Part shown: piece by piece, positions 3,001 through 27,988 of the stretch | How positions within the stretch are numbered: position 1 is the stretch's first letter | Layout: each line of letters starts with the position of its first letter | From: a virus | IMG/VR virus record: IMGVR_UViG_3300023284_000073 | Span: 1 to 28,233 of that record | Length of the DNA stretch: 28,233 nucleotides | Strand: one strand, 5' to 3' | Program-made: the position numbers and the translations under genes | The notes under the pieces: model-generated | The model's input: only the letters and a program-made list of their open reading frames with translations | What the model was told of the DNA's origin: nothing | Databases searched by the model: none

Positions 3001-3078
3001 AATCAGAAAGTTTTTGAAAGATTTAATAGAGTATTAAGACGTTCTCCTAAGAACTTACTTAGAGAAGGAGTTAAATAA
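1..3078 (+). CDS. Large internal virion / DNA-ejection-type protein, 5' end outside window
   Basis: This reading frame is open to the left edge. The first ATG is at position 10, but the nine bases before it hold no ribosome binding site, so the gene probably begins upstream and at least 1022 residues are visible. I see no enzymatic motif. The protein is rich in charged helical segments, with hydrophobic glycine/alanine-rich stretches around residues 530-570 and 730-750, as in large proteins that are carried inside the capsid and ejected with the DNA. It is followed, with a TAATG overlap, by a virion protein carrying a peptidase domain, which resembles the internal-core gene order of T7-like phages. 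The role is inferred from size, composition and position. It could also be another structural protein. Confidence 0.6.
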   Translation, partial: PQTMPLVSRYVLGRATKATLDDLKGGRLATNAESILMKGVVEALNNINPRTFPGGPGLSPKAKRIYDDLMLEIQQKDKWMTGGQVVEWYQRHYQRKPTIRELKAYAATRQIYAFDYLGLNAALRNELVAADYHEGIVKGLFKGPNVLKEVQGTSLPPNMVKIYDAIEGKLVHVKDNAALQKRLVRDGRNDLILLKLLESRKKFGQYIIVPRGDVNLRPLRAKVLSESKGPHRIYDVGNFIKQQRTRFINGREVLVNPKTHFAVKSPSEARKFVEDYNEALEAFKSARSRDDVLSKAQATLIINKNTRWSSFEEMEKAVKNNGLELTPFEALKDGELPTFRRDEFGTQPFDPDFASFSDKTNMLIQSGRLFYSRRGPILKHPREGNALILHPDVIIQRAITNVVRLQAYNNYRIRQVTRWVKTYDKYLEKVEGRSISEKFLYGQFDKSRNAAVPISGTTLRNAELQRQGILMMLKRRGVLEEQVHRYRDQIIDLIDERANADLADKAANIMSGDPIISLRGAAFKAFLGFWDSSQSIVQASTTPGVLAVSPVAGAKAIASYLTIRTALAAPQHVKTISKGLAKTTGLSVEMAERLIADIERSGIKIVDRNLGDLDAITGEGSVLTVGGAFLRRVTDSSMLFFKETEMYIRVLGFTIAWLENFEKTGKGLSTADDFARVGVRGIALAGNMTRNEKAFWQEGVLSLGTQFIAQPFRLAELLFFPTRGGFTPQSKLRWYMGLALAYGPLLGFTGDQSTGSLPEYIKQRYFEATGKEIPKEVMRAFTSGLIGSLLPETDIQRLQPFGQGFLLSDFFDKEKGVSLWDMLGASGSMVSQFLNATIGSAKVWAFLSADIDADLVPLTLQDIAHDVMKTLVSYNRAQKAIHAYQTRQYVNTRGDVLQEDIDTFDAAMIGLGFNPLESVEAYTGSGYLTEYQKKIFIDAKQAAKFFIAAVAAEEGSKEERLNLSYFNYLKQLHHITDLDGDGGALFAETVDKILKEKKVYNQKVFERFNRVLRRSPKNLLREGVK

Positions 3079-5690
3079 TGCCGAGACATGGCGCATTTGA
3101 TAATACACTACCTTTGTCCCGTGAACCTCAAGGGCCAAGAAGTTTTGGTAGGGTAAGAGAGCCTGGAAGACCTTCTACATTAGGTCTTGCTACTAATCTA
3201 TTTGGTACTCTTCTTGGTGGTGCTGCTGATATTATTGACTCAGCAGGAAATAGAGAAATAAGTTCTGGTATTGATGAAGCGATTGAAGGTGGTTTTGAAG
3301 AGGCGTTTGGTGAAACAATAGGTGAAGAGATAACTGAGGGTATTAACCGAATATCAAAAACAAAAGAGTCTAGTAAACAGGGAAGAGATGCAACAGATCG
3401 TTTTAATCTGTTTCTTATGTCAGAGATTAAAAAATTAAAAGTCCAACATCCTGGAAAAGAAGAGCTTATTAATAAACTCTTACGAGATAGGGGATTAATT
3501 GACCCCCAACTTCAGCTTCTAAAAGAACAAGGTGCTATAGAGGATAGGGCTGAAGCTGCTGATTTTGCTAGAAATGAAACTATGATTAATGAAGCAGTTA
3601 AACTAGGGGTTGCTACTTTTAATGAGCCCGGTAATCCTGCTAGTGGGGTAGATGAAGAAACTACACTTAAACAAATTACTGAAGTGTTTGTAGCAAGAGG
3701 AGAGTTGGATAGATCATTAAAATCTAGAGGATTTTTTAAAACTCCTTCAGGAGAAATCAAGTCTACTCTTAGACCAGTATATATTCAGAACATACCTGTT
3801 ATTAGACGGAGTTTATTTATTCAAGCTATGGCTGGTATTCGTGCTCCTTTAAATCAATTAAGTGCTCTTATGAGAGCTGGTGATATTAAAGGTGTTAATG
3901 AAGGTATGCAGGGGCTTACTGTATTAGCTGATCAATTTAGATTAGATCAAATAAAAAATACACTCAATCTTAATCCTTCTGAAAAAGAAGATTATATGAA
4001 ATACGTTGATGATCTGTTAGTTTCCATTACAAGTGGTGTATTAGGTACAGAAAAGATTACCGATTTAAACCAATTGAAAGCATTGGAAAATGTTTTTGGG
4101 TATGCTACTAAAAATGCAGAGATTATGAATGCTACAGACCTTCCTACTTTATTTAGGCTTAGTCTACTCTCTAAAAATTTAGGAGATGTCCTATTAAGTA
4201 CGAATTTGTCTGGTAATATAGGGTTAAAAACTAAGTTAGCAAGGAAGATAGGATTAGAAATAAAAACTCTTGGTGATATAGTTCCTTCAAAATCTGATCC
4301 TGAAGATGGTGATATTCCTCCACTTGGTAGTGGTGAGGTAGATCACAGTAAAGTCGATAAACAAGATAGAGTACAGGCTGCTAGTGATATTCAAAAAGGT
4401 CTACAAGATATAGGGTTTATTATTAATTCAAAAGCGGACTCTTATACTTGGATACAATCTAATGGGCCTGGGTTTAATGCTTTTATTAATACTTCAGGAG
4501 GCGTAGTTTTAACTGAGGAAGATAGGGATGTTATAGCTAATCAAATGCTTCATCCAAACTTTCTTACCAATCTTAATAAATCTTTATCCTTCCACCCAAA
4601 GAAGGCTGCTGCTGTAGGTGCTTATGCTTTCGATATGGTACAACAAACTCTACAAGATACAATGAGACAGTTTAGAAACTTCCCTATCTTTGGTGGACTA
4701 AATAGAGATTTCAAGATTGAGTTTGATAATCAAACAAAACAGTTTATTACTAAAGATGAGAACCCATTAGGTGCTGCTAGGCGTCCAGGTGCAGGGCCAA
4801 TTGCAGGGGGTAAGTCCTTTGCCGATATAGCTGGTGTTAAGGATCGTATGAATAAGATTAATAAGATGGTTCCTTTCCTTGTCGAAACAAGGCAGTTTAA
4901 AGATAGTGTTAAAGGAACGAGTGAGGTTGAGTTTATGGAGAGTGTAAAAGATTTGGTTACAAAAGACCTTTTTACTTTAAATGTAACACCAGCCTTCATA
5001 CCGAAAAATGCTCCTAATGTACAAACTAAACAAGGGGTATCTCTTGAAGGACTAGGCACTGAGATTTTGTCAGCAGTAGATAAGGCTGCACCTATTCTTG
5101 AAGCATTAAATGTTCCCTTAGTAGTAACCTCTGCTACTGAAGGCAAACATAAGAAGGGGTCTAAACATTTTTCCGGTAATGCTATTGATATAAGAACAAG
5201 ACAATTAGCACCGGAGAACCAACAGAAGGTTACTGCTGAGTTAAAAGATGCATTAGGAACAGACTTTGATGTGATACTTGAGAAAGATCATATACATATA
5301 GAATATGATCCGAAAAAAAAAATAATTGAGGGTGGTGGTGGGGAGACGGAGCTTATAGGGCAAGTTGCGCCAGATAGACAAGAGGAAGATAAAATTAGAC
5401 TGTTTAATCTTCTCACTCCCGATCTAAAAGAAAAATTAGAAAGGTTAAGTATTAGAGATATACCAGAAAAGGCTGCTAAGGGTCTTGAGGAAGAATTAGA
5501 ATTAAGTCTTAAGTCTATGAGTAGGGTCGATCTTCAAAGAATGGCTATGGCTCTTATAACTGGTAACATTACAGGTTCTTTTATTCCAACTGATGAAAAT
5601 ATAGATTTTATTTTAAAAGCTGATGAAGATGATCTTGTTAATTTGTTGTTTAAGAACTTAGTATTTACTGCTAGAGGTAAGGAGGTATAA
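3078..5690 (+). CDS. Virion protein with C-terminal M15-type zinc peptidase domain
   Basis: 870 residues. The start ATG overlaps the previous stop (TAATG) and is preceded by AAGGAG eight bases upstream. Most of the protein is helical and unrecognised, but residues about 665-745 carry the signature of M15 (D-Ala-D-Ala carboxypeptidase / L-Ala-D-Glu endopeptidase) metallopeptidases: a SKHFSGNAID segment giving zinc ligands H697 and D704 with the family spacing, and an E735-x-x-H738 motif inside EKDHIHIEY giving the catalytic acid and third ligand. The family cuts peptidoglycan stem peptides. In a structural gene this suggests a virion-associated enzyme that opens the cell wall during DNA entry. 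About 120 residues follow the domain. The peptidase call is strong; its role at entry rather than lysis is inferred. Confidence 0.8.
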   Translation: MPRHGAFDNTLPLSREPQGPRSFGRVREPGRPSTLGLATNLFGTLLGGAADIIDSAGNREISSGIDEAIEGGFEEAFGETIGEEITEGINRISKTKESSKQGRDATDRFNLFLMSEIKKLKVQHPGKEELINKLLRDRGLIDPQLQLLKEQGAIEDRAEAADFARNETMINEAVKLGVATFNEPGNPASGVDEETTLKQITEVFVARGELDRSLKSRGFFKTPSGEIKSTLRPVYIQNIPVIRRSLFIQAMAGIRAPLNQLSALMRAGDIKGVNEGMQGLTVLADQFRLDQIKNTLNLNPSEKEDYMKYVDDLLVSITSGVLGTEKITDLNQLKALENVFGYATKNAEIMNATDLPTLFRLSLLSKNLGDVLLSTNLSGNIGLKTKLARKIGLEIKTLGDIVPSKSDPEDGDIPPLGSGEVDHSKVDKQDRVQAASDIQKGLQDIGFIINSKADSYTWIQSNGPGFNAFINTSGGVVLTEEDRDVIANQMLHPNFLTNLNKSLSFHPKKAAAVGAYAFDMVQQTLQDTMRQFRNFPIFGGLNRDFKIEFDNQTKQFITKDENPLGAARRPGAGPIAGGKSFADIAGVKDRMNKINKMVPFLVETRQFKDSVKGTSEVEFMESVKDLVTKDLFTLNVTPAFIPKNAPNVQTKQGVSLEGLGTEILSAVDKAAPILEALNVPLVVTSATEGKHKKGSKHFSGNAIDIRTRQLAPENQQKVTAELKDALGTDFDVILEKDHIHIEYDPKKKIIEGGGGETELIGQVAPDRQEEDKIRLFNLLTPDLKEKLERLSIRDIPEKAAKGLEEELELSLKSMSRVDLQRMAMALITGNITGSFIPTDENIDFILKADEDDLVNLLFKNLVFTARGKEV

Positions 5691-16372: not shown

Positions 16373-16588
16373 TCATGGAATTAAGTATGCAGAAATACAA
16401 AATGTTTCAATTTTAGCCCGTTCCTTTGCTTCTTCACACTCTGACAACGACCAAAACACTGATGTCTCATACGGAAAATGATAGGAAAGAAACGGACGTT
16501 CCACAAAGTCAGGAGAAAGTAAATTGTTTTGCCCCAAATTAAAAGTGAATAAGATGTATACTATCAGGGTAACAGTACTAGCTGTCAT
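16373..16588 (-). CDS. Small exported protein, unknown
   Basis: 71 residues. The ATG at 16588 has an AGGAG site seven bases upstream and lies within the last codons of the primase-helicase gene. Longer versions starting at 16633 lack such a site. The N-terminus (MTASTVTLIVYILFTFNLGQ) looks like a signal peptide or membrane anchor. The remainder is polar, with two cysteines near the C-terminus (SECEEAK and ETFCISA). No family is recognised. It is unusual to find an exported protein between replication genes. Confidence 0.6.
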   Translation of the reverse strand: MTASTVTLIVYILFTFNLGQNNLLSPDFVERPFLSYHFPYETSVFWSLSECEEAKERAKIETFCISAYLIP

Positions 16589-18248
16589 CTTCATTCTCCT
16601 GCATCTCATTAAATAGACCAGTATGCTTGTCATAAAATACTTTTAAATATCCTGAATGACCAAACTCTCTATCCTCTAGTATGATTATTTTCCTAATGTT
16701 TTTCTTTTCATCAGGAAAGTCAGGGTCTTTGTTGCCCTCTATACCTATCATATAGTTACAGCTACGCATCATAGCCCTACTACCAGAGAATTGATAGCTC
16801 TGTACATGCCCCCCTCTCTCATGAGAAGGGCCAGCATCAGGACTTTTCAAATGACAAAATATAAATATAGCTATATCTAAATCCCTAGCCATAGCTGCTA
16901 GGTCTTGTGCTACTGATTGAAGAACAGTGTTAGCTTCTGATGGAGGCACTCCATTTGTTAAGTTTGTTATAGGGTCAATGAACACCGCCTTACAACCCAT
17001 CTTTACAGCCGCGTAGATGTCCTGTCGTAGCCCTTCCCATCCCAAGTGCTGCCATATGTCAAGGAAATGTACATCCTCATGTACAAGGGCCGCTCCCCTG
17101 TCATATGCCTCATAGTCAAAGGCTACTTCTGGATCAGTAAATATCCGACCCACTACCTTACCCACTAAAAGCCTCATGGATTTATTATTAGCCTCTTCAG
17201 GACTGGCTATAAATACTTTAATCTTATGTTCAGTGAGAAGATGGGCTGCGATTGTATGTACCGCAGTACTTTTACCCATCTTAACACCTGCACCTATGTA
17301 GTACGTCTCGCCAAACCTAATACCTCTCGTCATCTTAGTCATGTGCTTCCAGGGCCAAGACAGGCCCATCTGAGCAGCAACTCTGGCGCTATCACGAAGC
17401 TCAGTTCCTAAGATGATGCGAGTGTTTTTGAGACTACCGGCCTTGAAGAGCACGGCATCTGTCAGGGCACGCTCGTAGCCATCTAAGAGACATTGGTTGG
17501 CATCTTTAGAAGGAAGCAGGGCTGTCTTTGCTCTTGGTAATATTAGAGTTACATCCTTTGCTGCTTTCTTACCCGGCTCATCCATGTCGAATACAAGGAT
17601 TACCTCTTCAAACCTTTGTTGTATTTCGTTGAGGTTTTTAGCTACTACTGTGGAAGCAGACGTACTTCCAGAGGGTAGAGACACTACTGAGGGTATGTAC
17701 TTCTCCCACTTCGTACCTCTAGCCCGTTCGACTAAGGCTTGCCATAGAGCAACGGCATCCAACTCACCTTCCGTAATGAACAGCTTCCTTCCACCCGCTG
17801 CCTTCGCTTGTTCCCACCCAAAAAACTGAGAACCTTTTAAGTCACCCACACCCCACATCTTTTTACTATCTAACAAACGACTCTTCCACCCACTAACTTT
17901 CTTACCTTCCTTACAGTATGGATAGTGGTGTGTGATAGGAGTAGAGCCATCTACTTCTGATAGCCCTGTTCTTACTCCAAAATGTCCTAATGCATCTTTA
18001 CCTAATTTTCTATCAGGTAAGGACACAGTAGGTAGGTTGGAAATTTCAAAAATTTCTAAATCAATTTCTTCTTGTGTCTTTGTTATGTTCTTTGGTATCA
18101 CATACCCTACCGGAGCATGGGCATATGGATTATCAACGTATGTATCACATGCAAAACAATAGGCAGTGTACTTCCCTCTCTCTTCAAACACCTGAAGGGC
18201 ATCATGAGAGCCGCAAGAGTGTGGTAATTTTTCAATACAATGACTCAC
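16578..18248 (-). CDS. Primase-helicase (T7 gp4-like)
   Basis: 556 residues. The N-terminal zinc ribbon uses H10-x-C12 and C31-x-x-C34. A TOPRIM primase domain follows with E160 (ITEGELDAVAL) and DMD at 221-223. The RecA-like helicase has Walker A at 319-328 (GAGVKMGKST), a later FIDPITN segment and an FIFCHLKSP segment typical of DnaB/gp4 helicases. It unwinds DNA and makes primers at the fork. The start is GTG at 18248, overlapping the TGA of the previous gene, with AGAAGG five bases upstream. The C-terminus is acidic (QENEDDS), as in T7 gp4, where the tail contacts the polymerase. Confidence 0.92.
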   Translation of the reverse strand: MSHCIEKLPHSCGSHDALQVFEERGKYTAYCFACDTYVDNPYAHAPVGYVIPKNITKTQEEIDLEIFEISNLPTVSLPDRKLGKDALGHFGVRTGLSEVDGSTPITHHYPYCKEGKKVSGWKSRLLDSKKMWGVGDLKGSQFFGWEQAKAAGGRKLFITEGELDAVALWQALVERARGTKWEKYIPSVVSLPSGSTSASTVVAKNLNEIQQRFEEVILVFDMDEPGKKAAKDVTLILPRAKTALLPSKDANQCLLDGYERALTDAVLFKAGSLKNTRIILGTELRDSARVAAQMGLSWPWKHMTKMTRGIRFGETYYIGAGVKMGKSTAVHTIAAHLLTEHKIKVFIASPEEANNKSMRLLVGKVVGRIFTDPEVAFDYEAYDRGAALVHEDVHFLDIWQHLGWEGLRQDIYAAVKMGCKAVFIDPITNLTNGVPPSEANTVLQSVAQDLAAMARDLDIAIFIFCHLKSPDAGPSHERGGHVQSYQFSGSRAMMRSCNYMIGIEGNKDPDFPDEKKNIRKIIILEDREFGHSGYLKVFYDKHTGLFNEMQENEDDS

Positions 18249-18586: not shown

Positions 18587-19327
18587 TTACAAATATTCTG
18601 AAAAATTTTCTTTATACCTTTCAATAGTAACCCCCTCTAAGCCAGGAGCCGTATTGATTTCAAGAACAAAAGCATGTCCATTCTTTATTGTTACCACATC
18701 CACTGCCCCAAAGTCAAGACCAGTCACATCAAATGCTGCGAGTGCTTGAACTGTTACATCTTCTGGTATGTCTATGTCTTCCCTCATGTATACGAAGCCA
18801 CCAGCACGGTTCCTCACCCTCCAATTAGGGTCTTCAACCTCCCGCCTTCTCCCCTTTTTTTGCACATCAAACACCTTACCCTTGTGGATATGTACCCTCC
18901 ACTCTTCCTTCTTTTTAATATACCTAGTATATAAGGGAGCCTTAACAAGTTCTTCTTCTTTATCAGCTATAACTATACCCTTACCACTGCTGCCACGTAA
19001 GATAGTACGACAGACAACAGCGTATCCCGCACGTATCCATAAGGCTGCCTCTTTGGTATGAGTGGTAAATTTGGGAGTTTTAACACCCCCATCTTTACAC
19101 TTAGTAAGAAAAGTGAGCTTGTTTGTGGACTCAAACACCCTATCATTAGGGTTAATTACAGCACACTTTTGCACTTCATCAGGAAGCTTTGTTGATCCCC
19201 AATTTATAACCGTCTTGTCATAATGGCCTTTGAATTTAGACTCTTTGTGTTTGATTCTATTAATGCCCAATGCATCAGCGAGAGCCTTGGCTCCCTTGCT
19301 CTTGGAACTATGTGAATAAAGATTCAT
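18587..19327 (-). CDS. ATP-grasp ligase of the amidoligase island
   Basis: 246 residues. It shows the ATP-grasp pattern: an RGSSGKGI phosphate-binding loop at 111-118, an EEWRVHIHKGKV strand pair around 141-151, and the metal/ATP motif D205-FGAVD210 with LEINTAPG at 222-229 (E223, N225), close to RimK/glutathione-synthetase-like enzymes. Such enzymes join a carboxylate to an amine through an acyl phosphate. GAGGA lies seven bases before the ATG, and the gene starts three bases after the amidoligase-like gene. The substrate is unknown. With its neighbours it probably forms peptide or amide bonds in one pathway. Confidence 0.82.
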   Translation of the reverse strand: MNLYSHSSKSKGAKALADALGINRIKHKESKFKGHYDKTVINWGSTKLPDEVQKCAVINPNDRVFESTNKLTFLTKCKDGGVKTPKFTTHTKEAALWIRAGYAVVCRTILRGSSGKGIVIADKEEELVKAPLYTRYIKKKEEWRVHIHKGKVFDVQKKGRRREVEDPNWRVRNRAGGFVYMREDIDIPEDVTVQALAAFDVTGLDFGAVDVVTIKNGHAFVLEINTAPGLEGVTIERYKENFSEYL

Positions 19328-19330
19328 GTC

Positions 19331-20386
19331 TCAATCCTCTGGATTTTGGGGGGGTGCCATATCATCAGCAGCATCCCATTGTATATCTTCAGGTGCCCAT
19401 CTCGCCATCATATCTGGATTAATTGGAACTCGCCCACGCCTTGGTTGTTGTAATCTACCCTCCTCTGCCTCTGCATTCTCTCCTTCAAGCTCCTCTGGTA
19501 TTACAAGGGGACCGGCCTGAAGGTTAGCCATCATAGCCTCTAGTTCTGCTTTCTTAGGATTATACCTATTCATTGCCGGTTTCTTTTTATCAGGTATTGG
19601 GATGTATGCTAGTTCTTGTACTCTCCACACCCCATCTCTTATTATTTGATCTGTGTTAGGGTGCTTTATTAAAGATGCATACTCTTCTAATACATCTTTA
19701 ACAAACTGATTGCCCCCTCTAGCAGACAGTTGTTCTATTAAATCATTTGGCTGGTTAAACTGTAATGAGTAGTCTTTAACCTTTAGTAACATACTGACCC
19801 ATGTTTTAATGACATCAATATCTCTTGTCCCTCGCATAGCTCTGAATTCTAAGCTACCAAACTTAGGTATGGAAGCGAAGTTAACAGAACTATATTTAAA
19901 CTTCTGACTTCTAAACCCTCCCCAATTCTGTTGTGCTACAATATCACAAAGGAGTTGTATCACATGTGCTGCATCACTAGATGAGAGGCAGAAAAGATTA
20001 CCTTCCCTTTCTTTCCCACAAAATTTTATTAATAAATCTTCTAGTATATTGTAAACACAATAGAAAGTAATAACATTTTTAAACTCTAACTCTTGTACGT
20101 TGACATGAATATGAACACTTGTTCTTGGTGACGGAGGAATGATTGCTTTATGATCTATCCATGTCTTATGTAAGTGGTTTAATACCTTAGTTACTTCCTT
20201 TCTTTTTACTGGTGACTTCAACACATACTCTACAGGAGCATTGTTTTCATGTGCTCTTAATGAGCCATCCCCTACTACATGCCAGTATAAAGCAGGAGTG
20301 GCAAGGTGTTGCCCCTCACACTCAACCTCTATACCAATCTCTCCTGCTCTTTTTCTTACACCAAGATACTCTACCACTGTGGTCAT
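19331..20386 (-). CDS. Amidoligase-like enzyme (glutamine-synthetase fold family)
   Basis: 351 residues from the ATG at 20386, placed one base after the previous stop. The motifs GIEVE (18-22), EYVLKSPV (near 53-60), SVHIHVN (90-96) and SLEFRAMRG (178-186) match the putative amidoligase family related to the COOH-NH2 ligases of the glutamine synthetase fold, where the acidic, histidine and arginine residues bind metal and ATP. The last 60 or so residues are proline-, glutamate- and aspartate-rich and probably disordered. It lies between another amidoligase-type gene pair and an ATP-grasp gene. The precise reaction is unknown. Confidence 0.75.
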   Translation of the reverse strand: MTTVVEYLGVRKRAGEIGIEVECEGQHLATPALYWHVVGDGSLRAHENNAPVEYVLKSPVKRKEVTKVLNHLHKTWIDHKAIIPPSPRTSVHIHVNVQELEFKNVITFYCVYNILEDLLIKFCGKEREGNLFCLSSSDAAHVIQLLCDIVAQQNWGGFRSQKFKYSSVNFASIPKFGSLEFRAMRGTRDIDVIKTWVSMLLKVKDYSLQFNQPNDLIEQLSARGGNQFVKDVLEEYASLIKHPNTDQIIRDGVWRVQELAYIPIPDKKKPAMNRYNPKKAELEAMMANLQAGPLVIPEELEGENAEAEEGRLQQPRRGRVPINPDMMARWAPEDIQWDAADDMAPPQNPED

Positions 20387-20387
20387 G

Positions 20388-20954
20388 TTATATACTCGCT
20401 TGCAAGTGTTCTTTGAAGTAGAAGTGAGCCTCATCTAACTCAAAATCTTTTAAATTATTAGTAAACACACCTATCAATATCTTAGATTGGTATACAATAA
20501 CTCTTTTATCACCTATCGAAAAATTTCTAGAAAAAGCAGACGAGACAACTGTGCCTTCTTCAATTAATCTATGGCTTTGTTTAACAGATGGATAGTTGTT
20601 AGCTATTGTTTTTAATAAAGCCTTACAAGGCAACGGCAAGCCACAATATCCATGTTTTATACTGTAGGCTATGAAACTATCTCTATGTAGCCCTTGTTTC
20701 CATGCCCTTTGTGGTATTCTAGAAGTATAATATGTGTCACCTTCATGATTTAAATTACCTAATGGTACAGGAGACAGGTCAATTTCAGGGTCTTGAAGTT
20801 TTACTTTAGATATTTTATCTGTTCTTAAACCCTCCACCATTAAGAAATATGTAACGCTAGGTTGTGTAATGTCAATGATATAGACAGGCTCTTTCTTATA
20901 TCTGATTAAGGTATGTTCCAGTCTCATTTTAGCATCGTGAAGATTAATAAACAT
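20388..20954 (-). CDS. Conserved partner protein of the amidoligase cluster
   Basis: 188 residues. The start at 20954 has GGAG seven bases upstream and overlaps the previous stop by 11 bases. The N-terminus (LHDAKMRLEHTLIRYKKEPVYI) resembles proteins I associate with phage amidoligase clusters, a DAK--L-NT--RY---PVY pattern. The rest is a mixed alpha/beta protein without enzymatic motifs that I recognise. The position between two amidoligase-type genes suggests it is a partner, substrate or carrier. That is inference from context. Confidence 0.65.
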   Translation of the reverse strand: MFINLHDAKMRLEHTLIRYKKEPVYIIDITQPSVTYFLMVEGLRTDKISKVKLQDPEIDLSPVPLGNLNHEGDTYYTSRIPQRAWKQGLHRDSFIAYSIKHGYCGLPLPCKALLKTIANNYPSVKQSHRLIEEGTVVSSAFSRNFSIGDKRVIVYQSKILIGVFTNNLKDFELDEAHFYFKEHLQASI

Positions 20955-21747
20955 TCACTTGCTCCATATCTATACCAAGTTCGTTTACTATTTGTTCTGC
21001 CTTTGTTTTATTATTGTTATTAATACACTCCTCACCATCTGTATAGGTCAGATACCAAGGCTCACCATCTAACAGCTCTTCAATAGCCTTAATGGTGTGG
21101 TTATACACAAACATCATCAACACTGCATTCACGATCCACTTGTTAGACAGTACTCTATACTCCATACCATATGTCTTAGGTCTGAAAGTACCTGCCCTAC
21201 CATACATTTTCTTTCGTTCAATGCAATCGTTTAACAAAACAAACGGTACGCCAAGGAACAGGTCCATTTGTTTAGCTAAAGAAAAGCACCTACGCATGTG
21301 TTCACCACTCATAGGCTCGACTCCTTCTGTCCAGCCTACGTGTACATGTCCTGCTGCTGTTCGTATGTTACTATCAGGATTAGGAGACGGGTTAATTGTC
21401 TCTGTGTATGCATTAAAGTCAGGGTCACACCCTAGTTCTAAAGCTTCCCTTGGCTGTGTCTTTAAGCACTCCTCTTTAAACCTAACAGTTGCTTCCAATA
21501 CGAACTCATGCTCAGGCACCATTTGTTTTAATTGATCAAGGACAGAGAAAACATTATTAACAAACTCCACTGATGTAGATGCAGGATCAATGTTAAACTC
21601 AAGCGCCATGCCATCCACCTGAACAGCACCATGTTTCACTGGATGGGGGTGGGCCTTAGTTCCAGGTATCAACCCGTATCCACTAACCAGCTCCCCCTTA
21701 TGTTTAACAAACAACTCAGGGTCAGCACCCACTAGTATCTTGTTCAT
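20944..21747 (-). CDS. phiEco32-type COOH-NH2 ligase (type 2)
   Basis: 267 residues. It starts with GADPELF (7-13, acidic D9 and E11), then VDGMALEFNI (E50), GHVHVGW (H134, H136) and YGMEYRVLSN (E196, R198). These are the metal/ATP-binding positions of the COOH-NH2 ligase type 2 family first recognised in phage phiEco32, a branch of the glutamine-synthetase-like amidoligases. The family is predicted to join an amine to a carboxylate with ATP. The start overlaps the class II amidotransferase stop (ATGA). The substrate is not known. Confidence 0.85.
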   Translation of the reverse strand: MNKILVGADPELFVKHKGELVSGYGLIPGTKAHPHPVKHGAVQVDGMALEFNIDPASTSVEFVNNVFSVLDQLKQMVPEHEFVLEATVRFKEECLKTQPREALELGCDPDFNAYTETINPSPNPDSNIRTAAGHVHVGWTEGVEPMSGEHMRRCFSLAKQMDLFLGVPFVLLNDCIERKKMYGRAGTFRPKTYGMEYRVLSNKWIVNAVLMMFVYNHTIKAIEELLDGEPWYLTYTDGEECINNNNKTKAEQIVNELGIDMEQVNVY

Positions 21748-23123
21748 GTTTCACCTTTTGAATTATCAAAAGAATTGTCACACTTACCACATACGGCAAC
21801 GTCATAGTGGTTCTCATCAAAAATTATTCCATCATCCTCAAAGCACAAAGGATCACCACACCAAGCACAGTTCTTATACTGTGAATCAAACTGTCGCTTA
21901 TTTAATTTTAATCCTAATCTTGTTTGTCTCTTACAATCCAAAGGAACTATAATATCAACAGTTTCTACTCCTACTATGTATATCTTAGATGTCCCTGATT
22001 TACCTGAATGATAAGAGTGTGAGATTCTTCCTTTAAAGAACAGCTTATCGTATAAAGAATCGTTAGTGGGGTAGAGGTCTGCTAAATAAAAGTCTCTTTC
22101 GTTATGTAAATATATTCTAGCTTCATGTCTCCTGTCTAAATTTTGAAAGCCACATATTATAGTGTATCCAGTCAGCTTCTTCTTAGTGTAAGTCTTGACT
22201 ATGTTTCTTGGATAGAGAGAATAACACTGACCAACTATAGGAATAGCAACAATCTTACTAAGGCCAGGAAGATTGTTCTGTACAGGAACAGGCTCACCAC
22301 CTATATCAGTGTTAATACTAGTATCCCCCACGCCCTGCGTCATAGGATTACGCCCCCTCCATCCCCACCAAGCATCATAATCATTCTTCTCTGGTGCTTT
22401 ATATGGCGGAGGTACGAATGGCTTTAGTTTTTTCTTAGCTATTTTTATTTTCTCTTTACCAAAATTTGCATCATCGTATGAAATTTCATAATGTTTATGA
22501 ACACCAACATCAAATATCTTACCGTGTGTTACTCCACTTCTTAATGCAGCAACACGGATCATCCACCCCTCTGATGCATAGATCAAACCGTCTTGTTCTT
22601 TTGTCCATGCATAAGACAACGGACGTTCCCTATTCCTAATAAAGTTTAAAGTTTTAGTTCTCTTGTCCCACCAAACGAGAGCCATAGCTCCTCTTACTTT
22701 TTTATATATGTTTTTAATACCTTCTTTATTAATAAGGTATAAGATGTGCTCACTATCTACATCAAACTTATGAGCATCCCCCAACTCATATCTTCCAACA
22801 ATAGTACCGTTATGGCACCCCAGTATATGTGAAAAATCAAACGGATGGGCATTTTCTGAAGTGATTTTCCCTATAGTGGCCCATCTGTTGTGCCCCATGT
22901 ATAAATTATACCACCCCTTGTCTGTTATTTTTATGTATCGTTTATTAGTAAGAAGAATATCAGGCAGATTGACAGACTTAACGAAGGTACATGCTCCGTT
23001 AATACCTGCGAAGCCAACACCTGTAGAGTGTGGCCCTCTTATCGCACCTAAACGGAGCAAGTCTCTAAACATTTTCTCTCTTGGAAGCGTATGTTTACCA
23101 AAGTAACCAACCAAACCACACAT
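21744..23123 (-). CDS. Class II glutamine amidotransferase with zinc-knuckle tail
   Basis: 459 residues from the ATG at 23123, which is preceded by AGAGGG eight bases upstream. Upstream starts would bury the catalytic cysteine. The protein begins M-C2-GLVGYFG, so C2 becomes the N-terminal nucleophile after Met removal, as in PurF/GlmS-type enzymes. RGPHSTG, GHNRWATIG (77-85) and GCHNGTI (102-108) are the glutamine-binding motifs. The domain frees ammonia from glutamine. About 240 further residues are unrecognised, and the C-terminus has a C419xxC422...C445xxC448 zinc knuckle. It probably supplies ammonia to the amidoligases. The tail function is unknown. Confidence 0.88.
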   Translation of the reverse strand: MCGLVGYFGKHTLPREKMFRDLLRLGAIRGPHSTGVGFAGINGACTFVKSVNLPDILLTNKRYIKITDKGWYNLYMGHNRWATIGKITSENAHPFDFSHILGCHNGTIVGRYELGDAHKFDVDSEHILYLINKEGIKNIYKKVRGAMALVWWDKRTKTLNFIRNRERPLSYAWTKEQDGLIYASEGWMIRVAALRSGVTHGKIFDVGVHKHYEISYDDANFGKEKIKIAKKKLKPFVPPPYKAPEKNDYDAWWGWRGRNPMTQGVGDTSINTDIGGEPVPVQNNLPGLSKIVAIPIVGQCYSLYPRNIVKTYTKKKLTGYTIICGFQNLDRRHEARIYLHNERDFYLADLYPTNDSLYDKLFFKGRISHSYHSGKSGTSKIYIVGVETVDIIVPLDCKRQTRLGLKLNKRQFDSQYKNCAWCGDPLCFEDDGIIFDENHYDVAVCGKCDNSFDNSKGET

Positions 23124-23127
23124 AGGC

Positions 23128-23760
23128 TTACCCTCTGTTGAACAAGTATTCATTAAGGTATTGGAAGTATAAATCTCTACACTCCTGATAACCATCGAAC
23201 TCAGGATGCGGTTGAAAGCATAAACTATTAGTAATGGGATAGTGTATTACTTCAAGCTCATAAACAGGCAGTCCTTTATTCATGCTTTCTTTAGCGTAAG
23301 AACTACACACTCCTTCAGCAATAGCAATTATATCATTATAACAACCATCCTCAACATAACTATCTCTCATCATTTGATGGTGTGTACTACTCACTTCATA
23401 TATTTCATTAGTCCACACATCTCTAATTTTGTGAGCTATACAGTGTCCATCGACATGCTGATACATCTTACCCCCGTTCATGACATGTAAGAACTGTCCT
23501 CCCCTACATATACCAGCCATAGGAATATTTAATTTAATTATATCATCATAAAGACGATGTTCATTTGCATCTCTTTGGGGGCTGTTATACGTATGTGGGT
23601 GTGCCTTCTCACCATATAATGCAGGAGTTACATCACTCCCCCCTGTAAATTGAATAAGATCAGCCTCCTCCATGTTCTCAACCACCAAGTAATCATCATG
23701 GTTGTTGAACATACTGATGTACTGACCATTGGGATTGATTATGAATACTTTCCTAGTCAT
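23128..23760 (-). CDS. Class I glutamine amidotransferase / C26 peptidase-like
   Basis: 210 residues from the ATG at 23760, preceded by AGAAGG six bases upstream. The catalytic triad is visible: C85 in GICRGGQ, H185 and E187 in FQPHPEF, with a FTGGSDVTPALYGE loop earlier. The loop and HPE motif are typical of the gamma-glutamyl-GABA hydrolase (PuuD)/C26 group as well as of class I amidotransferases. It may release ammonia from glutamine, or it may cleave a gamma-glutamyl bond. It sits four bases before the class II amidotransferase, so the island holds both unrelated types. Confidence 0.85.
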   Translation of the reverse strand: MTRKVFIINPNGQYISMFNNHDDYLVVENMEEADLIQFTGGSDVTPALYGEKAHPHTYNSPQRDANEHRLYDDIIKLNIPMAGICRGGQFLHVMNGGKMYQHVDGHCIAHKIRDVWTNEIYEVSSTHHQMMRDSYVEDGCYNDIIAIAEGVCSSYAKESMNKGLPVYELEVIHYPITNSLCFQPHPEFDGYQECRDLYFQYLNEYLFNRG

Positions 23761-24613
23761 GACACACCTTCTCCATTTGAGATGTAAATTCTCTAACAAA
23801 TATCTTCTTACTTCTTATGGTAGTGTATGCTACATAGTTTGGCTTGACATTAGTATGCCAATCGTTTTCATTCGGTTCTTTCTTTACTTTCTTAGGCTTC
23901 GTAGAATATTTAAAATCTATAGCCTTTCCATCTCTCGGATTTCCCCATAAATTAAAGACACCAGAAAACTTTGTATTCTTTTTAAATATATTACGTGGTG
24001 GGGAGTGTTCCCCTACCCTTGCTATCTTACCAGCACAAAAGTTTTTTAAATATTTAGGAGTGAATGGTTGATTTAAAGACAGATGATTTGTATTATAATA
24101 TGGTTTGTTAAGTAAGAAGCCCCCTTCACATATCTCAAGGTAGTGTGTAGCAATGTAAGCATACTCGGGATTAAGCCCGGCATTCACTAGCTCCCCCCAT
24201 ATGATGACCTTATTGGGGCACTCATCAATCTCTCTTACTGCACTCAGTCCACTCATTAAGAGAGTGGAGAGTACATTTGTATGACAGATGATCCCCTTAT
24301 CTATAGCCTTGTTTGGAACTTTAGTATAGAACACACTAGACCAAGGGCTATTGTTTAATATCCAATCCAGATATAGTATTGAGACACGTCTCCCCACTTT
24401 TTCACAATTTCTTATTAAAGAAACAAAAGATACTGCCCCTTTCCACTTATGGCCTTCAAAATTTAAATTGTTATAACATACCCTATTCCACCAACATTTA
24501 TGATAGGTAGGATACACTGCTGCATAGTTATTAACACTGCTACCATGCTTGCCGCTTTCTTTCCCCTCTCTCAGTTCCTTCAATGCAGCGCGTGATTTTC
24601 TAAGATATTTCAT
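23753..24613 (-). CDS. Unrecognised 286-residue protein of the amidoligase island
   Basis: Start ATG has GAGG five bases upstream, and the stop overlaps the class I amidotransferase start. The protein is aromatic- and asparagine-rich, with cysteines C40, C47 and C70 and a basic C-terminal third (YSTKPKKVKKEPNEN). Segments such as VIIWGELVNAG and SILYLDWILNN look like Rossmann-type strands and turns, but I cannot match a family. The strict coupling with the amidotransferases suggests it belongs to the same pathway, perhaps as substrate-specific enzyme or DNA/protein-binding partner. Confidence 0.6.
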   Translation of the reverse strand: MKYLRKSRAALKELREGKESGKHGSSVNNYAAVYPTYHKCWWNRVCYNNLNFEGHKWKGAVSFVSLIRNCEKVGRRVSILYLDWILNNSPWSSVFYTKVPNKAIDKGIICHTNVLSTLLMSGLSAVREIDECPNKVIIWGELVNAGLNPEYAYIATHYLEICEGGFLLNKPYYNTNHLSLNQPFTPKYLKNFCAGKIARVGEHSPPRNIFKKNTKFSGVFNLWGNPRDGKAIDFKYSTKPKKVKKEPNENDWHTNVKPNYVAYTTIRSKKIFVREFTSQMEKVCHD

Positions 24614-27914: not shown

Positions 27915-27988
27915 TGGTCGTCCCGCCGGGAGTTGAACCCAGATCGGACGCTTATAAGGCGTCTGCTCTACCGTTGAGCTACGGGACA
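27915..27988 (-). tRNA. tRNA-Ile (UAU), CCA encoded
   Basis: The minus strand forms a clean cloverleaf: acceptor pairs TGTCCCG/CGGGACG (first pair U-G), D-stem GCTC/GAGC, anticodon stem GACGC/GCGTC around CTTATAA, T-arm CTGGG-TTCAACT-CCCGG, discriminator A and encoded CCA. The anticodon TAT reads AUA (Ile). Most bacteria read AUA with a lysidine-modified CAU tRNA instead, so this phage supplies an alternative for its AT-rich codons. Confidence 0.88.

Follow-up and report, generated by a model that had tools for sequence, protein, structure and literature searches.

A phage amidoligase cassette of Zobellviridae type and apparent AUU/AUC starts of its class II amidotransferase gene in relatives

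What does a phage make with two glutamine amidotransferases, three predicted ligases and two unnamed proteins encoded side by side? The question is raised by a 28,233-bp virus fragment with Zobellviridae-type gene content (IMG/VR record IMGVR_UViG_3300023284_000073, positions 1 to 28,233, hereafter the window), in which seven open reading frames (ORFs) run on the minus strand from 24613 down to 18587. All seven ORFs were confirmed; five of the products match curated families and all seven match phage families in PHROGs. The seven genes, called an amidoligase island in the initial annotation, which was made from the letters of the window alone, are not a new island but an intact, Zobellviridae-type copy of a phage amidoligase cassette that is already in print. 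A seven-gene "peptidoglycan modification cassette" was described in RIO-1, HP1, PA11, CW02, LUZ24, PaP3, tf and phiEco32, with a proposed role in changing the cell surface so as to block superinfection (Duhaime et al. 2017, PMC5498523, whose cassette passage cites Hardies et al. 2013 and Iyer et al.), and the same description was repeated for a LUZ24-like phage (PMC11945000). A tblastn search with the COOH-NH2 ligase of the window found relatives in 317 phage records, many of them from phages of E. coli and P. aeruginosa, and in HP1, the only phage measured, the cassette genes are expressed immediately post infection (PMC7082346). With a ligase this widespread, and genes transcribed first in the one phage measured, the question of the product matters.

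The genes had been read as an overlapping series from an ORF list that used the longest possible starts. Homology and motifs moved three of these starts, each to an ATG: that of the class I glutamine amidotransferase (GAT-I) from 23799 to 23760 (Met14 of the ORF), that of the class II glutamine amidotransferase (GAT-II) from 23195 to 23123 (Met25) and that of Amidoligase_2 from 20434 to 20386 (Met17). After correction, adjacent genes either share 4-11 bp or leave gaps of 1-4 bp. The tight collinear unit of seven genes is real, but the extent of the overlap was partly an artefact of start-codon choice. The COOH-NH2 ligase, Amidoligase_2, GAT-II and ATP-grasp genes, by which we recognize the cassette, all lie on one strand in the window.

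The five enzyme assignments held in comparisons with curated Pfam families. GAT-I (23128..23760, minus strand, as are all genes of the unit; 210 residues) matches Peptidase_C26 (E 1e-20) and is of the gamma-glutamyl hydrolase type, with the Cys85-His185-Glu187 triad of class I/C26 enzymes invariant in corrected numbering; its closest solved relatives are PuuD (profile match 1e-8) and a Pseudomonas glutamine amidotransferase. GAT-II (21744..23123, 459 residues) matches GATase_6 (2e-18) and combines an N-terminal nucleophile (Ntn) glutaminase domain, closest among solved structures to those of PurF and GlmS, with a long, unassigned C-terminal region. Under the corrected start its nucleophile is Cys2, and the Arg, Asn-Gly and Asp residues of the class II Ntn core are conserved, as are four cysteines of a zinc-ribbon-like motif near the C-terminus (C419, C422, C445 and C448; 21780..21869), which are invariant in 24 aligned sequences. 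The COOH-NH2 ligase type 2 (20944..21747, 267 residues; COOH-NH2_lig, 1e-9) is a phiEco32-type amidoligase of the glutamine synthetase fold (GS-fold) with invariant GxDPE, E50, GHxHxG, R178, R189 and YGxEYR, and Amidoligase_2 (19331..20386, 351 residues; E 3e-6) keeps the motifs GxExExE, HxHxN and EFR; sequence searches of the PDB with these two ligases returned zero matches. The ATP-grasp ligase (18587..19327, 246 residues) is RimK/glutamate-ligase-like: it scores above the cut-off for RimK (7e-5; 22.9 bits against 21) and just below that for R2K_2 (24.2 bits against 26.2) and is not assigned to the R2K_2 clade, its closest solved relatives in profile searches are RimK and an alpha-L-glutamate ligase, and its ATP/Mg residues K70, R107, E142, R144, K158, D210, E223 and N225 are invariant. 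Conservation was scored in 85-98 non-redundant relatives and in alignments of 22-24 sequences; catalytic residues across the cassette enzymes are 85-100% conserved, and ATP-binding, metal-binding and catalytic residues were read from these alignments rather than from enzyme models. The unit is accordingly composed, as far as sequence can tell, of three ATP-dependent carboxylate ligases, one ammonia source and one gamma-glutamyl hydrolase-like enzyme, and these identities and residues support the amide-bond pathway first suggested for it.

Do these genes travel together? Single-sequence scans of viral contigs with either unnamed protein, here called A and B, found nothing, the divergence of both being too great for peptide patterns to catch. 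Loci were gathered through the COOH-NH2 ligase instead. This gave 107 loci, of which the window is one and most are IMG/VR contigs; a few are overlapping copies of one contig. All were searched with iterated profiles. Among sufficiently flanked loci, GAT-II was present in 99/99, Amidoligase_2 in 103/103, the ATP-grasp ligase in 102/102, A in 104/106, GAT-I in 83/89 and B in 73/81. Cassette members always share a strand and their order is nearly invariant, that of the window being the commonest among the 107 loci. The same series is seen in the annotated neighbourhoods of TC6, CW02, T5S1, CVT22 and KIT05, and variant or rearranged versions in LUZ24, HP1, Bas90, GAP52, LAh_9, Privateer, Bjorn, PaP3 and others. 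In LUZ24, Bas90, GAP52, LAh_9, Privateer and Bjorn most of the genes are kept but reordered. Gene sets that are reordered and yet retained in distant lineages favour a functional unit over mere common descent, and they are stronger evidence of co-inheritance than the locus counts. Neither ground on which the initial annotation would have given up the pathway, genes that fail to co-occur in other phages or enzymes lacking ATP- and metal-binding residues, applies here, the residues being judged from the alignments. A gamma-glutamyl cyclotransferase gene accompanies the cassette in 31 of 102 flanked loci; it was not detected in TC6, nor in the window, which is a 28-kb fragment of an incomplete genome. 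It is present in all five fully flanked loci without GAT-I and in 19 of 71 with GAT-I, a small sample suggesting that the two enzymes can replace each other.

The initial annotation singled out the two unrecognized proteins as the likeliest carriers of a specific new role. They are not peculiar to this phage; both are core cassette families. In related phages (Bruynoghevirus, Kuravirus-like and Grimontviridae) A was recovered by profile comparison, and B mainly by predicted fold. A (20388..20954, 188 residues) matches phrog_11055 at 7e-28, a PHROGs family of unknown function, and resembles the protein that occupies the equivalent position in LUZ24, phiEco32-like and Grimontviridae phages (hhalign probability 99%, E 2e-18). 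Its G66 is invariant and R79, R83, G88 and G162 are nearly so. A PDB sequence search with A returned zero matches. In the predicted model (mean predicted local distance difference test score, pLDDT, 96.7) the N-terminal part resembles a Tudor/SH3-like barrel, and the PDB structures matched are small Tudor/SH3 barrels only, at Z of about 5-6 and mostly over 47-65 residues. The resemblance in the model is one of a common arrangement and not a family assignment; the barrel suggests that A is an adapter rather than an enzyme.

B (23753..24613, 286 residues) matches phrog_27195, also of unknown function, at 1e-13 over its core only. B has two invariant residues, Cys46 and Arg127, and two nearly invariant ones, Glu131 and His177, and may have a Cys-dependent activity. 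Its predicted model (pLDDT 88) found no convincing match in the PDB with Foldseek or VIA-align, which does not make the fold new. Sequence matches of B in the PDB were weak, short and mostly to designed helical repeats, and were judged to be chance. The fold recurs in predicted proteins of phages such as CVT22, CW02, RIO-1, GAP52 and Proteus phage 3H10_20 (E 2e-13 to 5e-4). By profile, B is similar to an upstream protein of LUZ24/Kuravirus cassettes with a probability of 85%, and to a second upstream protein with only 39%. Three loci of LUZ24-like, phiEco32-like and Grimontviridae phages (L024:5443-7380, L026:6815-8996 and L119:5661-7489) encode, upstream of the ligase, a tandem pair of unnamed proteins, each with an invariant Cys, and these may be duplicates of B.

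Set beside its published relatives, the window is closest in layout to Pseudomonas phages TC6/PA11 (Zobellviridae, Paundecimvirus), whose recognized order of B, GAT-I, GAT-II, COOH-NH2 ligase, A, Amidoligase_2, ATP-grasp ligase and primase is identical. The COOH-NH2 ligases are 45% identical, and TC6 differs in small extra ORFs within the unit and in a UUG start on GAT-II. The cassette of RIO1-like podoviruses (PMC5498523) has the same kinds of enzymes on one strand beside replication genes; the window carries a C26-type GAT-I, which was not detected in HP1, and no cyclotransferase gene was detected within its 28 kb. LUZ24/PaP3 (Bruynoghevirus) and the phiEco32-like and Grimontviridae phages share the COOH-NH2 ligase, A, GAT-II, the ATP-grasp ligase and either Amidoligase_2 or another protein in its place, but put GAT-II downstream of Amidoligase_2, usually have the cyclotransferase and carry two upstream proteins, one or both B-like; GAT-I was not detected in LUZ24 and Bas90. 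The analysis thereby defines the conserved set, places both unnamed proteins in its core and names residues for mutation.

What, then, would the cassette do? Gene identities, conserved catalytic residues, co-inheritance and conserved order come from the present analysis and early expression from the HP1 paper; from these we infer the order of reactions, the route of ammonia, the substrate and the parts played by A and B. Our preferred reading, to which we give a probability of roughly 0.65, is a short cytoplasmic pathway, expressed early, for the ATP-dependent amidation or gamma-glutamylation of a host carboxylate. With ATP, both GS-fold ligases and the RimK-like enzyme would activate carboxylates and build amide or gamma-glutamyl bonds one after another, the added group being ammonia or glutamate. 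The class II glutaminase would release ammonia from glutamine for at least one ligase, and the C26 enzyme, joined in many relatives by gamma-glutamyl cyclotransferase, would cleave gamma-glutamyl bonds in trimming or editing. A would be an adapter without catalytic activity and B an additional component that may depend on its Cys; the target is probably some molecule of the host and not the virion or DNA. No hydrophobic segment of transmembrane strength was found in any of the seven proteins. In SU10, a lysate concentrated with polyethylene glycol (PEG), with no gradient purification, was found to contain the ATP-grasp, GAT and UPF0131 proteins (PMC4281155); cassette proteins are thus made, but their detection in such a lysate is no proof that they belong to the virion.

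For the substrate, the published proposal of a cell-wall precursor, with the envelope changed to exclude other phages, is still the most economical, and we lean to it tentatively, at less than even odds; protein or small-molecule targets are nearly as likely and DNA is unlikely. Several observations weigh against the preferred reading or its cell-wall form. Neither a substrate or product nor a knock-out phenotype turned up in the literature searched. GAT-I is similar to gamma-glutamyl hydrolases, and the absence of a GatD-type enzyme from its matches makes the analogy with MurT/GatD peptidoglycan amidation weak; in addition, no Mur ligase was recognized in the unit and the nearest relatives of GAT-I are PuuD-type hydrolases. 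The ATP-grasp enzyme is nearest to RimK, which indicates proteins at least as well as the cell wall. Most of the counted loci are Zobellviridae-like, so their co-occurrence partly reflects shared descent, and of the five loci that suggest an exchange of GAT-I and cyclotransferase, no fewer than three come from distant lineages.

One rival reading is protein modification, in which glutamate, amino acids or amides would be added in RimK style to a host protein, for example a ribosomal or transcription protein, with A as target adapter. Such a target is possible though somewhat unlikely. The profile searches that place the ATP-grasp enzyme with RimK and alpha-L-glutamate ligases speak for it, as do the Tudor/SH3-like barrel of A, a common interaction fold, the early expression in HP1 (PMC7082346) and the prediction that phage R2K-type ligases modify host proteins (PMC4431377). 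The R2K_2 match of the window, however, is under the cut-off, three ligases and two glutamine amidotransferases are many for a single protein tag, and the nearby cyclotransferase and PuuD-like hydrolase suggest small gamma-glutamyl substrates.

Those same two enzymes lead to a small-molecule route, either to a soluble gamma-glutamyl or amide-rich compound or to gamma-glutamyl recycling, that would redirect nitrogen or disturb host signalling or defence. The pairing of a GS-fold ligase with a C26 gamma-glutamyl hydrolase recalls the PuuA/PuuD gamma-glutamyl-putrescine pathway, but the cassette lacks the oxidase and dehydrogenase steps and its ligases are of other GS-fold families. GAT-I is nearest to gamma-glutamyl hydrolases and many relatives have a cyclotransferase nearby. 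A scan of bacterial genomes gave 10 loci, all metagenome-assembled and several resembling phage contigs, none of them in a chromosomal context with a known pathway; in two metagenome-assembled records (L113:5174-10066 and L117:953-4571) C26 and cyclotransferase genes are the only recognized partners of the COOH-NH2 ligase. Against this route, the unit has no transporter or recognized acceptor gene, and the strict conservation of seven genes suggests a target more demanding than metabolite recycling, and we consider it doubtful.

Glutamine amidotransferases are also part of phage 7-deazaguanine DNA pathways, and the cassette adjoins a primase gene, which might point to modification of virion DNA with amino-acid or amide groups, one of the uses first listed for these genes. 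We regard this as very improbable: among the ORFs searched in this incomplete fragment, no thymidylate-type hydroxymethylase, DNA kinase, FolE/QueD/QueE/QueC or similar gene of known hypermodification or 7-deazaguanine pathways was recognized.

While starts were being compared, GAT-II stood apart from its neighbours. The codon before the nucleophile Cys in 100 loci is ATG in 72, ATT in 13, ATC in 7, TTG in 5 and GTG in 2, with one odd case; the GAT-II of the window itself starts at ATG. About 20% of relatives thus appear, from their sequences, to use AUU or AUC, immediately ahead of the catalytic Cys, as the start of GAT-II; loci of this kind include L005, L010, L044, L049, L053, L069, L071, L076, L079, L085, L089, L093, L104 and L107. 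No ATG, GTG or TTG lies between the upstream stop and this Cys in 15 of 97 GAT-II genes, one pair being from the same contig, compared with 0 of 309 genes for three other cassette members (Fisher P 2e-10, ignoring relatedness), although the control is imperfect: in the other genes the anchor residue is more distant from the start, so that a canonical codon has more space in which to occur. Shine-Dalgarno motifs are stronger in the AUU/AUC cases, with at least 5 bases in 11 of 20 against 18 of the 72 others compared (P 0.015). On a tree of the neighbouring ligase, many forks of which are weakly supported, the switch requires a minimum of 17 changes. Independently, a pattern scan of IMG/VR turned up 41 GAT-II genes of this kind, of which 35 have no canonical alternative and 35 have the ligase gene on the same fragment. 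Frameshifts or propeptides were considered for the forced cases; a non-AUG start is simpler, given that Shine-Dalgarno sequences are well placed and stop codons lie a short way upstream.

The apparent AUU/AUC starts are the new side finding here, the cassette itself being already known, and they reveal annotation that drops a catalytic cysteine: in Pseudomonas phage O4 (NC_031274; L130:420-528) the annotated aminotransferase begins downstream of this Cys, apparently owing to an AUC start. A full-text literature search found no report of an AUU/AUC start of this kind in phages; a related precedent is the IF3-repressed GTC start of sigR in Streptomyces (PMC5472188). The starts offer a testable regulatory idea. 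In its most far-reaching form, which we think distinctly unlikely, the cassette would carry out a novel gamma-glutamyl or amide modification of a host envelope component or protein, with B as a Cys-dependent enzyme of undescribed fold and the AUU/AUC start restraining the glutaminase in many members under initiation-factor control.

Around the cassette, a primase/helicase gene at 16578-18248 adjoins the unit on the same strand, and the DNA polymerase, primase/helicase, sigma factor, exonuclease and virion genes of the window resemble those of Zobellviridae podophages. Scans for promoters and terminators gave signals no better than in shuffled sequence. Downstream of an internal-virion-like gene, an ORF of 870 residues (3078-5690) has no PHROGs match and a weak match to Peptidase_M15_3. 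Bacteria normally read AUA with a modified CAU anticodon and a UAU anticodon is unusual; the window encodes a tRNA-Ile with the anticodon UAU at 27915-27988, and AUA makes up 46% of the Ile codons in the genes counted.

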